Source of the DNA: Halorubrum aquaticum
GTDB taxonomy: Archaea > Halobacteriota > Halobacteria > Halobacteriales > Haloferacaceae
DNA length: 64,000 nucleotides
Reading direction: 5' to 3'
Assembly: GCF_900113615.1 (NCBI RefSeq)
Contig: NZ_FOPZ01000005.1
Span: 124,001 to 188,000, forward strand
Of this stretch, positions 48,224 to 53,816 are shown piece after piece (within the stretch, counting starts at the first letter, position 1; each line of letters starts with the position of its first letter). The notes under the pieces were generated by a model. That model was not told the origin of the DNA and did no database searches. It saw only the letters and a list, made by a program, of their open reading frames with translations. The position numbers and the translations under genes were made by a program.

Positions 48224-48949
48224 CTACAGCCCGGTGACCGCATCGAGCGTGATCCGGATCGCGCGCTCGACGTTGTCCTTCGCCTTCTCGGGGAGCTCGT
48301 CGTCGGAGTCGGCGCCCTTCTGGGTGCCCGCGACGAGGTTGCCGTCGACGGTACAGATCGCGCCGGCGGCCAGGCCCTTCCGGCGGGCGAGCGAGAACAC
48401 GGTCGCGGCCTCCATCTCGATCGCCAGCAGGTTCGCGTCCTCCCAATCGACCACGTACTCGTCGCTCTCGTTGTAGAAGGCGTCGTCGGAGACGATGGGG
48501 CCGACGTGGACCTCCTCGTCGTTCGCCTCCGCGCCGTCGACGAGCGCGGAGAGCACCTCGTAGTCCGGGACCGCCGGGTACACTTCGTCTTCGTAGCGCT
48601 TGCTCGTCCCCTCCTCTTTGGCCGCGCCGGTCGCGACGACCATGTCGCCGACCTCCATGTCGGCCTGGAGCGCCCCGCAGGTGCCACAGCGGACGAACGT
48701 CTCGACGCCGACCCGCGAGAGTTCCTCGACGGCGATGGCCGCGGACGGGCAGCCGATCCCGGTCGAACAGATCGTGAGGTCGACGCCCTCGTAGGTCGCG
48801 TTGACGACCTTGTACTCGCGGTTCTCGGCGACGAGTTCGCTGTCGTCACACAGGTCCGCGATCCGGTCGACGCGGCCCGGGTCGCCGGGAACGATCGCGG
48901 TCTCGTGGACGTCGCCCTCCTCCACCAGCAGATGCGGCTGTTTCGCCAT
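48224..48949 (-). CDS. udp: Uridine phosphorylase / nucleoside phosphorylase (NP-I)
   Basis: 241 residues; phosphorolysis of uridine or related nucleosides to base and ribose-1-phosphate. Motifs include ETAIVPGDPGRVDRIADL (phosphate loop), CSTGIGCPSAAIAVEELSRVGVETFVRCGTCGAL, and IEMEAATVFSLARRKGL (base/ribose site). Length fits udp. I use the ATG at 48,947-48,949 (MAKQPHLL). Substrate could be another pyrimidine or purine nucleoside. Possibly acts with tdk in salvage. Confidence 0.9.
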   Translation of the reverse strand: MAKQPHLLVEEGDVHETAIVPGDPGRVDRIADLCDDSELVAENREYKVVNATYEGVDLTICSTGIGCPSAAIAVEELSRVGVETFVRCGTCGALQADMEVGDMVVATGAAKEEGTSKRYEDEVYPAVPDYEVLSALVDGAEANDEEVHVGPIVSDDAFYNESDEYVVDWEDANLLAIEMEAATVFSLARRKGLAAGAICTVDGNLVAGTQKGADSDDELPEKAKDNVERAIRITLDAVTGL

Positions 48950-49179
48950 ACGACCGTCTCCAGCGGCCGCGCGCAAAAACGACCCGGTACTCGGTGGGGG
49001 ATCAGGCCTAGATCGCGATCGGATCGGAATTTGCTATACCGATATGAAGTGTATGGACGGTGGGTCGGCCGGATCGATCCCGACCGTCTCGGGTCGTAGT
49101 TCGTCTCGGAGGAATGGTGGTTATCGCGCGTGAAACACGGTCGCGGGAATTTATAACCGTTGGCGACCCAGAGACGGCA
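48950..49179. other. Divergent promoter region between udp and the pilin-like gene
   Basis: TATA-like AATTTATAACC at 49,148-49,157 stands about 25 bases ahead of the start at 49,180, so that message is leaderless. On the other strand, GTTTTTGCG near 48,970 can serve udp. Nothing else is seen. Confidence 0.5.
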
Positions 49180-51840
49180 ATGAGTTTCAGTCACGACCGT
49201 CGGGGCCAGTCGGTCGTGGTGGGGACGGTGATCCTCTTCGGCTTCCTGATCCTCGCGATGGCGACGTATCAGGTCCAGTTCGTACCCGCGGAAAACGAGG
49301 AGATCGAGTTCGAACACAGCCAGCAGGTGGAAGGGGAGTTCCTGGACCTGCGGAATTCTCTGTTATCTGCCAGTACGACTGGAGACTCCGGACCCGTTTC
49401 GCTCCAATTTGGGACTCGGTATCCACCCCGGACGTTCTTTTTGAATCCCCCACCCGTCTCGGGATCGTTATCAACGAGTGAACCACGTGAGCTACGTATC
49501 GAGAACGCTAACGTATCCGAAGACGGGAATATAGGAGATTTCTGGACGAATGGGCCGAATAATGACGCCGGAAATCTCACGTTCAACACCCGTTCGGTTC
49601 GATATTCAGTGAACTACAACGAGATCCAAGGAGATCCGGATCTGCTGTATGAACATTCGCTCGTCGTTGCGGAATTCGACGAAACCGCACTCGGAAGATC
49701 CGGACAGTCGCTCGTTCGTAATGAACAGCGTGTCGTGATGATCCCACTGCTTGATGGAGAACTCTCGGAGAGTGGTGTTGATCAGCAGAGCATCGAACCG
49801 AGGACCCTCTCGGCGAGTCAACGAACGGTAACACTGACGCGAGAAAACCCGACAGAACCATTAGAGATCGTTCTTCCGACGAGCGTCTCCGGGGATCAGC
49901 AACTTGAGCGACTCACAACTGAGTGGGATGACCGGATCGAAAACGGTACTGTTAGCGTAACTTCTGAAGATAATATTCGACTGACGATCAACGCCGAGTC
50001 GTACGAGCTTAGGATCGGAAAGGCTGGGATCGGGTCTGGGCTCACGGCTGAGGACGAATCGAGCGGATACATCGTGCGAATTCCAGAGAGTGGGACCGCT
50101 ATCGTGGAGGTTCGTGATCGATATAATAACCCAGTCACGGGTGCGAAAGTTGATGTTTACAACAGTACGACTGCCACAGATCCCGAACAAACGCTTCGGA
50201 CAGATTCGAACGGGCAAGTTCGATCTGAGAGTGGAACGGTCTTCACGATCAATGGTGTCGATGCTGACGGCACAGACGGCGAGGGCTACGAGAGAGTCGT
50301 TATCCCTTCGGAGACGTCTGACAGCAACGGGAATGTGTCTGGTCCGGAGGTATACGATACTGCCGTCTCACCCACAACTCTCCCACGTGGAAATTCGTTC
50401 AGTCTCACTTCCACGATCAGCAGCGTTGGCGACGGATCCCCGATACGAACTGGAACGCCGATCCAAGCCGCGGAAGTCCTTGCTGAACATGAGAATGGTA
50501 CATCCTACACAACCTCGTTCAACTACGACCCGGATACCACGGAACGAACGTACAGCCTCTCTGAGGTGATATCTACGGACTCCTGGGAAACTGGTGCGTA
50601 TGACGTTACGGTTCGAGGGCAGGATGCCAGTGGTCGCTGGACTGACGAAACGGAGGTAGGAACTGCTGAAGTAACGATTACCGAACCTACTAATGGAACA
50701 CAGATCACCGAATTCAGTTCGGTCTTCGTGACGAATATGGTTGAGAACTCGAACAGTGAGAGTCAGACATTCTCCTTCTCGCTGGACGGAGATCTGGCAG
50801 AGGGAGAAGAAATCGTTATTGATCTCAACGATCCGCAGGATGTTGGTGGTCCTCCGGGCAGCCAAGAGGTCCAGTACAACGGGGCGACCGTAACGGTTGA
50901 TGCTGGATCAGGAACTGCCGAAATCACCGTTGGAGGACCTAATGCGGAGATCGTCTATACGGCGGGATCTGGTGGTGATCCGAGTGGAATCGAACTCCAA
51001 GTCACGGTTGACGGCGTCAGTACCGGCGATGTCGCGGGTGAACAGTATAACGTCGTGTTCGAACAACCGGCAAGCGGGTCGACAGCGATGACGACGTTCG
51101 GTATCGCGCCCGCAGCGGGAGACCGGACTGTGAGTAACGACGTTAACGGAAACGTCTTTTCGACCGGATCACTGACCGTCGCATCAGATCACACAATCAG
51201 CGGTGATGCGAGTGGTAACGGTGATGTTACGATGAACTCCGGTTCGGAGGTGAGTGGGTCCGTCACGAGCGGTGGAGCGGTGACAGTCGGCCAAGAGTCC
51301 ACTATTGGAGATAGCCTTGATGCGCAAGGAGATGTAACTTTGAATCTCCGCTCGGAAGTGGATGGACCCGTCACGAGTCGTGGAGCGGTGACGGTCGGTC
51401 AAGAGTCAGTCGTTGGAGGCGGTGTCGATGCGCAAGGGGATGTCACCACGAACTTCCGTTCGGAGGTGGGCGGAACCATCATCAGTGATGGAGCGGTGAC
51501 AATCGGCCAAGAGTCGGTTGTCGGGGGAGGGGTAAACGCACGGGGTGATATCACACTGAATTTCGATTCAGAAGTGGATGGGACCGTCACGAGTGAGGGA
51601 GCAGTGACGATCGGACAGGATTCGATCATCAGAGGTGATGTCGTTGCCAGCGGCGACGTGACTATCGAACAGGGGGCCATCATCGAAGGCAGCGTGACTT
51701 CCGATGGACAGGTCTCTCTCGGTCAATCGAGTGCGGTTCAAGCGGACGTGTTCGTCGATTCTGCCGGTGACATCAGCTGTGGACAGGGGTCTACGATCAG
51801 CGGACAGAACTGTTCCACGTATGTCAACGAGAACTATTAG
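49180..51840 (+). CDS. Type IV pilin-like surface protein with a C-terminal beta-helix of 36-residue repeats
   Basis: 886 residues. The N-terminus DRRGQSVVVGTVILFGFLILA has an archaeal class III signal: PibD should cut between Gly9 and Gln10, leaving a hydrophobic helix. A long Ser/Thr/Asn-rich extracellular part follows, with a carboxypeptidase-regulatory-like section (VEVRDRYNNPVTGAKVDVYNST, about 309). From about residue 648 to the end is a beta-helix-like repeat: a Gly-rich 18-residue rung pattern, GDVTLNLRSEVDGPVTSR then GAVTVGQESVVGGGVDAQ, repeated. This resembles bactofilin/polymer-forming folds. The fusion of a pilin anchor to a polymer-forming helix is unusual. GC is lower than the neighbours. 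Confidence 0.82.
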   Translation: MSFSHDRRGQSVVVGTVILFGFLILAMATYQVQFVPAENEEIEFEHSQQVEGEFLDLRNSLLSASTTGDSGPVSLQFGTRYPPRTFFLNPPPVSGSLSTSEPRELRIENANVSEDGNIGDFWTNGPNNDAGNLTFNTRSVRYSVNYNEIQGDPDLLYEHSLVVAEFDETALGRSGQSLVRNEQRVVMIPLLDGELSESGVDQQSIEPRTLSASQRTVTLTRENPTEPLEIVLPTSVSGDQQLERLTTEWDDRIENGTVSVTSEDNIRLTINAESYELRIGKAGIGSGLTAEDESSGYIVRIPESGTAIVEVRDRYNNPVTGAKVDVYNSTTATDPEQTLRTDSNGQVRSESGTVFTINGVDADGTDGEGYERVVIPSETSDSNGNVSGPEVYDTAVSPTTLPRGNSFSLTSTISSVGDGSPIRTGTPIQAAEVLAEHENGTSYTTSFNYDPDTTERTYSLSEVISTDSWETGAYDVTVRGQDASGRWTDETEVGTAEVTITEPTNGTQITEFSSVFVTNMVENSNSESQTFSFSLDGDLAEGEEIVIDLNDPQDVGGPPGSQEVQYNGATVTVDAGSGTAEITVGGPNAEIVYTAGSGGDPSGIELQVTVDGVSTGDVAGEQYNVVFEQPASGSTAMTTFGIAPAAGDRTVSNDVNGNVFSTGSLTVASDHTISGDASGNGDVTMNSGSEVSGSVTSGGAVTVGQESTIGDSLDAQGDVTLNLRSEVDGPVTSRGAVTVGQESVVGGGVDAQGDVTTNFRSEVGGTIISDGAVTIGQESVVGGGVNARGDITLNFDSEVDGTVTSEGAVTIGQDSIIRGDVVASGDVTIEQGAIIEGSVTSDGQVSLGQSSAVQADVFVDSAGDISCGQGSTISGQNCSTYVNENY
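51220..51759 (+). repeat. Five tandem 108-bp repeats in the pilin-like gene
   Basis: Units begin at 51,220, 51,328, 51,436, 51,544 and 51,652, each 108 bp without indels. Each unit encodes two 18-residue rungs starting GDVT and GAVT/GQVS. The third-position changes show the units have diverged at DNA level while protein spacing is strictly kept, pointing to selection on the helix geometry. Confidence 0.85.
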
Positions 51841-51913: not shown

Positions 51914-53257
51914 ATGACCGCAGTGGGGATCGACGCCATCGAGATCCGATCCGGAAAGCTCAAACTCGACTTACCGGGCACGTTCGCCCCGCAGAAGGGC
52001 GACGACCCGGAGAAGTACACGAAGGGACTCGGGCTCACGAACTCCTCGTTTCCGGACGTCTACGAGGACATCGTCACCATGGGCGCGAACGCGGCCAAGC
52101 GCCTGATGGACCGCAAGGGGCTCGTTCCCGACGACATCGGGCGGATCGACGTCGCCACGGAATCGGCGTTCGACCACTCCAAGCCCGTCTCGACGTACAT
52201 CGCGGGGTGTCTCGAGAAGGTGTACGACGGCGACTTCGTCCACGCCAACAAGGGCGAGCGCAAGTTCGCCTGTGTCGCCGGCACGCAGGCCGTCGACGAC
52301 GCGTACAACTGGATCCGCGCGGGGCGGAACCGCGGCCGGGCGGCGCTCGTGATCGCGACCGACACCGCGCTGTACGCCCGCGGCGACCCCGGCGAGGCGA
52401 CCCAGGGCGCGGGCGCGGTCGCGATGCTTATCGCCGAGAAGCCGAACCTCGTCGAGCTCTCGGACGACCAGGGATACGGCTCGAAGGACGAGACGGACTT
52501 CCTGAAGCCGAACCAGCAGTTCCCGAGCGTCGACGGCAAGCGCTCGATGCAGGTGTACCTCTCGCGGATGCGCGAGGCGCTCGAGGACTACGAGTCGGTC
52601 GCGGGGAAGATCGAACTCGACGACTTCGCGTACGCCCCGTTCCACACGCCGTTCCCGGGGATGGTCCGGAAGGCCGCCCTGCTCGCGTACCGCCACGTGA
52701 TCCGCGACACCGAGTACGAGGACGACCTCGCCGGCGAGATCGGCCGCCAGCCGCGCGAGGACGAGTACGACGACCGCGAGGCCTACGAGGAGGCGATCCG
52801 CGGCTACATGGACGATCTGAAGACGACGGAGCAGTATCGGACGTGGTACGACGACGCCGTCGAGCCCACGCTGGGGCTCTCCCGGGAGGTCGGAAACTGG
52901 TACACCTCCTCGGTCCACGTCGCCCGCGTGAGCGCCCTTCGCGACGCGCTCGCGCGTGACCGCGACTTCGTCGGCGAGACGCTGCTCGTCGCCTCCTACG
53001 GCTCCGGCGCGCAGGCCGAGATCCACGCCGAGACGGTTCGTGAGGGGTGGCGTTCGGAGGTCGACGCGCTCGACATCGACGACCAACTCGAGGACCGATA
53101 CGACCTCTCGTGGGAGGAGTACGAGGACGTCCACGACATCCACGAGTACGACAAGGACCTCGACCGCGAGATCGAGGAATTCACCGCCCCCGAAGGGGAG
53201 TTCGTCTTCACCGGCTGGGGCCGGATGAACGAGCGGAAATACGAGTACGTCGAGTAG
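51914..53257 (+). CDS. hmgB: 3-hydroxy-3-methylglutaryl-CoA synthase
   Basis: 447 residues; condenses acetoacetyl-CoA with acetyl-CoA in the mevalonate pathway for isoprenoid lipids. The catalytic Glu is in DVATESAFDHSKP and the Cys in ERKFACVAGTQAVDDAYNW (near residue 120); the His lies in YAPFHTPFPGMVRKA. Length is typical of the archaeal form, with an acidic C-terminus (DIHEYDKDLDREIEEFTAPEGE). The ATG at 51,914 fits. A short TATA-like CGTTTATG (51,909) lies too close to be the promoter, so a more distant one is expected. Confidence 0.96.
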   Translation: MTAVGIDAIEIRSGKLKLDLPGTFAPQKGDDPEKYTKGLGLTNSSFPDVYEDIVTMGANAAKRLMDRKGLVPDDIGRIDVATESAFDHSKPVSTYIAGCLEKVYDGDFVHANKGERKFACVAGTQAVDDAYNWIRAGRNRGRAALVIATDTALYARGDPGEATQGAGAVAMLIAEKPNLVELSDDQGYGSKDETDFLKPNQQFPSVDGKRSMQVYLSRMREALEDYESVAGKIELDDFAYAPFHTPFPGMVRKAALLAYRHVIRDTEYEDDLAGEIGRQPREDEYDDREAYEEAIRGYMDDLKTTEQYRTWYDDAVEPTLGLSREVGNWYTSSVHVARVSALRDALARDRDFVGETLLVASYGSGAQAEIHAETVREGWRSEVDALDIDDQLEDRYDLSWEEYEDVHDIHEYDKDLDREIEEFTAPEGEFVFTGWGRMNERKYEYVE

Positions 53258-53360
53258 CCTCCCGGCGAGCCGTCAGGCCCGCCGTTCTCCGTGAAAACGG
53301 CTCACACGACGGCTCTCGAATACGATGGGTTTAAACGACCTTGGGCTGAATTCTCCCCTA

Positions 53361-53816
53361 ATGGTAACCATCTACGACGTGCCGGCGGACGCCCTCATCG
53401 AGGCCGTCGCGGCGCGACTCGAGGACCGGATCGACGAGCCCGACTGGGTGGAGTTCACCAAGACCGGCGCGGGCAAGGAGCTCCCGCCCGAACAGGACGA
53501 CTTCTGGTACGTCCGCTCGGCGAGTCTCCTCCGCAAGGTCGCCCAGAACGAGCCGGTCGGCATCGAGCGGCTCGCCACGGAGTACGGCTCGAAGAAGCGT
53601 GGCTCCAACCGATACATCGTCCGTCCCGGCGAGCACGAGAGCGGCTCCCGCAAGCTCATCCGTGCGTCGCTTCAGGCGCTCGAGGAGGAAGGGCTCGTCA
53701 CCACCGCCGCCGGCGAGGGTCGCCGGGTGTCCGACGAGGGCGAGGCGTTCCTCTCGGAGGTCGCGACCGAGGTCTTCGAGGACCTCGACCGGCCGGAACT
53801 CGAACGCTACGCCTGA
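53361..53816 (+). CDS. rps19e: 30S ribosomal protein S19e
   Basis: 151 residues of an archaeal/eukaryotic small-subunit protein. Conserved parts: TIYDVPADALIEAVAARLEDRI, DDFWYVRSASLLRKVAQNEPVGIERLATEYGSKKRGSNRYIV and GSRKLIRASLQALEEEGLV. The ATG is at 53,361, with TATA-like TTTAAAC near 53,331 about 30 bases away. The preceding 12 codons in frame are not part of the family. Confidence 0.95.
   Translation: MVTIYDVPADALIEAVAARLEDRIDEPDWVEFTKTGAGKELPPEQDDFWYVRSASLLRKVAQNEPVGIERLATEYGSKKRGSNRYIVRPGEHESGSRKLIRASLQALEEEGLVTTAAGEGRRVSDEGEAFLSEVATEVFEDLDRPELERYA

Follow-up and report, generated by a model that had tools for sequence, protein, structure and literature searches.

A pilin-anchored haloarchaeal protein with a capped, bactofilin-like beta-helix at a conserved locus with exchanged alleles

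Background

The window analyzed here is a 64,000 nt stretch from Halorubrum aquaticum (contig NZ_FOPZ01000005.1, positions 124001–188000). It contains a gene whose product begins like a pilin and ends in a predicted beta-helix of the type found in bactofilins. A preliminary description of this DNA proposed that the protein may self-assemble into a surface polymer, possibly an unreported one, and that the gene may have been acquired.

Results and discussion

The gene and its neighbors

The gene and flanking features are as follows.

48224–48976, minus strand: nucleoside phosphorylase-family gene (PF01048), upstream neighbor
49150–49155, plus strand: TATA box (TTTATA) of a probable leaderless mRNA promoter, kept at -30 across loci
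49180–51840, plus strand: gene for the pilin-anchored beta-helix protein, 886 aa, ATG at 49180, stop at 51840
51914–53257, plus strand: HMG-CoA synthase (HMGS) gene (PF01154/PF08540), downstream neighbor
53325–53816, plus strand: ribosomal protein eS19 gene (PF01090), conserved downstream

The TATA box is present in 37 of 40 related loci and is at exactly -30 in 36 of these and at -31 in one. Because of this spacing, the start at ATG 49180 is considered right and the mRNA is probably leaderless. The gene is single copy. Its GC content is 0.55 compared with approximately 0.69 in the flanks, in agreement with the preliminary description.

Among 39 named relatives, most of them Halorubrum, each of the 36 loci in which HMGS was located has it downstream, and each of the 34 in which the phosphorylase was located has it upstream. 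The same locus and neighbors are also present in most order-level relatives, and the GC is below that of the flanks in nearly all relatives' versions of the gene. Since the locus is syntenic and the low GC is shared in this way, the gene does not represent a recent island.

The amino-terminal anchor

Three features make up the amino-terminal part of the protein.

49180–49206, plus strand: class III signal peptide MSFSHDRRG, residues 1–9, motif in 35/35 sequences, with cleavage predicted after G9 by PibD
49201–49377, plus strand: pilin-type N-terminal alpha helix (H-domain and extension), residues 8–66, AF2 model
49378–50049, plus strand: beta-rich pilin-like head, residues 67–290, AF2 model, kept in all alleles

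The sequence MSFSHDRRG/QSVVVG, where the slash marks the predicted cut, carries the motif R8-G9/Q10-S11...G15. R8 and G15 are invariant in the 35 family sequences, and positions 9–11 stay within the permitted set in all of them (G/A at 9, Q/V/A at 10, S/A/T at 11). The published class III rules call for a charged residue at -2, G or A at -1, permitted residues at +1 and +2 and then an H-domain (PMC4371748); the window protein agrees with these (RG/QS). The genome has one copy of an A24 prepilin peptidase gene (PF01478, over cut-off) and six T2SSE-type ATPase genes.

An AF2 model of residues 1–400, built on an alignment of 32 sequences, has a mean pLDDT of 86.8 and displays the helix at 8–66 (pLDDT 79–97 from residue 11 onward) followed by the beta head. 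A VIA comparison of this model gives no clear PDB match for the head. The window N-terminal domain is under every Pfam pilin cut-off: there is no match to Pilin_N (PF07790), and DUF7289 scores 15.3 bits against a 27-bit cut-off. The conserved class III signal supports an exported, membrane-anchored protein, as had been claimed along with the signal itself; judged from sequence, it would be cleaved and exposed at the surface.

The stalk, the beta-helix and the cap

The outer part of the protein consists of the following.

50059–50319, plus strand: Ig-like stalk domain, residues 294–380 (EVRDRYNNPV), AF2 model and VIA
50695–51120, plus strand: Ig/cohesin-like beta-sandwich, residues 506–647, AF2 model and VIA
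51124–51777, plus strand: bactofilin-like beta-helix of 18-residue rungs, residues 649–866, AF2 and PF04519
51220–51759, plus strand: five in-register 108-bp units of two rungs each, no indels
51769–51837, plus strand: C-terminal cap with C867 and C878, residues 864–886, short end helix

The stalk domain resembles invasin and macroglobulin (MG) domains (VIA Z 7–8), with a weak Big_1 match in 22 of 32 relatives. The beta-sandwich (VIA Z 6–8) directly precedes the helix, and the same domain type is found in three other cases (L070, L118/L166 and L096).

Autocorrelation of the protein sequence is 0.47 at a lag of 36 residues with a harmonic of 0.28 at 18; the maximum in 1000 shuffles is 0.18. The last 240 residues had been described as strictly periodic. 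This holds for the rungs, approximately residues 649–866, but the terminal 22 or so residues are a non-periodic cap. Similarly, although all five 108-bp units share one register, DNA likeness is limited to four of them, with 66–73% to the first unit within this group and 45% for the fifth.

An AF2 model of residues 480–886, based on an alignment of five sequences, contains a beta-helix with a pLDDT of 97–98, and values are 94–98 over most of residues 649–866. Pfam places Bactofilin (PF04519) over cut-off in the window protein (E 1e-8, 35.7 bits vs 27.9) and in all five helix alleles, so the bactofilin-like assignment made earlier is upheld by both model and profile. VIA matches the model to right-handed beta-helices, e.g., the HMW1 secretion domain (Z 16.4) and tapirin (Z 16.2). 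Foldseek gives no convincing PDB match for either AF2 model; the best E for the helix model is 0.017. The solved bactofilins 6ria and 2n3d are absent from the Foldseek and VIA lists, which is no evidence for a different fold, and solved bactofilins give weak profile matches only (E 0.01–0.04).

In the H. cibi orthologue the array is shorter by one 36-residue unit and includes two nearly identical units; therefore the helix changes in length by duplication or loss of units. At one locus (L069, 6709–7782) the opposite strand of the helix-encoding DNA also carries long repeat frames that match the helix. As these are a codon-pattern effect, such antisense matches are not to be counted.

The cap is about 22–23 residues long and finishes in an end helix at residues 878–885 in the AF2 model. 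C867 and C878 are the only cysteines of the protein. The same arrangement of just two cysteines, both in the cap, is found in 4/4 capped orthologues from this locus (those of the window, Halorubrum cibi, H. halophilum and H. rubrum). Across 13 aligned capped helices, the invariant cap residues are C, I, G, C and Y alone. A C867–C878 disulfide in the cap is probable.

Capped helices in other haloarchaea

A profile of the capped end gives 30 strong loci in 391 genomes of the class. A class III signal is present in 26 of these by rule and in 27 by eye (L207 added), while L201, L202 and L204 have a Sec-type signal. Four proteins (L203, L205, L210 and L198) have both Pilin_N and Bactofilin over cut-off and represent canonical pilins with a capped helix. 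Capped helices with pilin signals occur in many genera, and with about 27 such proteins the combination is not unique to this gene. Since some 27 of 30 capped helices carry a pilin-type signal, extracellular reuse of the bactofilin fold appears to be recurrent.

In a broader survey of helices the cap goes with the class III signal (11/16 vs 3/49, Fisher p 1.4e-6, a value that is optimistic because of the relatedness of the genomes and the use of pilin-type proteins to build the profile). Cytosolic halofilin-type relatives (L152–L165, L168 and L191) are without signal and without cap. Other exported helices have Sec, Tat or lipoprotein signals; the Tat or Tat-lipoprotein type is seen on ten bactofilin-like helices (L121, L127, L128, L131, L138, L139, L143, L183, L188 and L189). 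Exported bactofilin-like proteins without a pilin signal thus look common in haloarchaea. At E 1e-12 no genome in the phylum sample outside this order gives a match, and no relative was confirmed in the viral contigs searched with the helix profile.

A distant relative in the pilin-like N-terminal family (L195/L172, G091:C7) has a separate, differently built helix that also matches FapA (PF03961) and ends in the same Cys cap. This suggests that the cassette for the cap or tip is passed from one anchor to another.

Allele variation and exchange

The helix type described here is found only in the window, H. cibi, H. halophilum, H. rubrum and a contig named Halobellus captivus (L096). Most relatives' alleles at the locus have other outer domains without the helix, and two (L106 and L107) have a shorter, different periodic tail at the end. 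The HMG-CoA synthase of L096 differs from that of the window by a dS of 0.19, no more than in Halorubrum species; a wrong name, contamination or a transfer of the locus would each explain this.

For species pairs with an HMG-CoA synthase identity of 94% or more, the identity of the N-terminal domain is 34–93%, and the N-terminal and HMGS trees disagree. In the comparison with H. cibi, the pilin part has a dS of 0.47 and the parts beyond it range from 0.7 to >1.5, as compared with 0.155, 0.138 and 0.107 in three neighbor genes; overall, synonymous divergence is 0.4 to >1.5 in the gene vs 0.11–0.19 in the neighbors. DNA identity is 96–100% over the first 100 nt of the gene, falls mostly to 40–80% inside the gene in relatives other than H. 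cibi, and is back to about 95% at HMGS where this follows directly. This pattern of a kept 5' end, a diverged gene and restored HMGS identity marks an exchange of alleles between relatives, that of the window included, through homologous recombination. The suggestion of acquisition is therefore retained for the allele and not for the locus, which is syntenic, ancient and low in GC nearly throughout the relatives.

Proposed function and alternative explanations

The explanation that we consider fairly probable is a pilin-anchored surface protein for recognition or adhesion, with a capped, length-variable rigid tip, encoded at a fixed locus by exchanged alleles. The protein would be inserted by the Sec pathway and cut after G9 by PibD, and the alpha1 helix of roughly 57 residues would serve as its anchor, with the membrane a likelier site than a pilus. 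Beyond this helix, the head and Ig-like domains would raise a rigid right-handed beta-helix rod of about 12 rungs, or about 6 nm by our own estimate at 0.48 nm per rung. A disulfide-stabilized cap would close the rod, whose tip may serve as the distal recognition or adhesion element and would vary in length by 36-residue units. Recombination would swap the outer domains, with the conserved 5' end and the adjacent HMG-CoA synthase gene as its anchors. These swaps and the changing unit number suggest that the variation is driven by partners such as other cells, surfaces or viruses. Prediction and conservation give good support to the anchor and fold steps, and the conserved motif, the order of domains, the cap, the synteny and the allele divergence are seen in the sequences themselves. 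For the function, we infer a recognition or adhesion role from what these features suggest; the protein is not known to carry a binding motif, and the resemblance to adhesin beta-helices is one of fold only.

An alternative that we regard as unlikely is that the protein is a minor pilin or tip subunit, built into a type IV pilus with the beta-helix decorating or tipping the filament. The pilin-like signal with its long alpha1, the six ATPase genes and the canonical Pilin_N pilins with capped helices are consistent with this, but no pilus-assembly gene adjoins the locus, where the neighbors are metabolic or ribosomal, and the head far exceeds the usual size in pilins. In addition, the H-domain is unlike the PilA-type H-domain. 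Haloferax adhesion pili need an H-domain of that type (PMC4371748). Unlikely as well is a wider version, in which pilin heads made from a bactofilin-type beta-helix form a widespread disulfide-capped class on surface filaments, with length-variable and exchangeable forms as variants for cell-cell recognition or as virus receptors. The polymer of the preliminary description, i.e., exported helices stacked end to end or side by side into a membrane-tethered extracellular filament or mat, is improbable. The PF04519 matches, the regular and uninterrupted helix and the related exported helices in other proteins speak for it. However, the bactofilin BacM polymerizes via hydrophobic patches at both ends and has only short tails outside the solenoid (PMC4372379), whereas here both stacking ends are occupied, by an Ig-like domain before the first rung and the conserved Cys-Cys and alpha-helix cap after the last. 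Alleles without any helix also occupy the same locus in most relatives.

Two further explanations have very little probability. A recently acquired foreign gene would fit the low GC and the dS raised relative to neighbors, but the single-copy gene keeps its locus and neighbors in named haloarchaea that number about 36 and belong nearly all to Halorubrum. Whole-gene acquisition is ruled out by this synteny; only allele replacement within the family fits. An adhesive beta-helix of the Ice-binding/DUF3494 type, and not a bactofilin relative, was considered since Ice_binding (PF11999) is just over cut-off on segment 480–886 (29.2 vs 28.7 bits) and the best PDB profile matches are antifreeze proteins (E 0.0016). 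This match is restricted to profile positions 161–205, the last 45 of 208, and for the full protein it drops below cut-off (20.2 bits); Bactofilin scores higher.

Relation to known systems

The likeness to bactofilins and halofilins (PF04519) lies in the 18-residue-rung beta-helix and the Pfam score. Bactofilins are cytoplasmic, without an export signal and with free helix ends, in contrast to the conserved class III signal and the enclosed helix of the window protein. Archaeal type IV pilins (PF07790, DUF7289) share the class III motif, H-domain, long alpha1 and beta head with it; the window protein differs in its length of 886 aa, its Ig stalk and solenoid tip and its hypervariable locus. 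An outermost right-handed beta-helix on a surface protein, as in the model, is also seen in beta-helical adhesins such as tapirins, which are associated with type IV pili, and the HMW1 secretion domain, but these are unrelated in sequence to the window protein. In the searchable literature, outside which the halofilin paper (PNAS 2024) falls, no account of bactofilin domains that are exported or fused to pilins was found. Fold and anchor are each known; the recurrent joining of the two, together with a conserved cap, is not described as far as this literature shows.

The significance of the protein is that the fold of an intracellular cytoskeletal polymer appears to have an extracellular use on pilin anchors, where a cap would block stacking. 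The capped helix offers a direct test of what lets a bactofilin helix polymerize. The hypervariable, recombining single-copy locus provides a handle on haloarchaeal surface variation, in recognition and virus defense, which is poorly understood.

The locus also gains further genes. Some relatives have extra genes between the phosphorylase and the pilin-like gene: in L086 (2206–4848) a gene for a repeat-bearing surface protein of 880 aa whose end is PGF-CTERM-like, and in L099 (2393–4825) a solute-binding-protein-like gene together with a HEAT-like gene.
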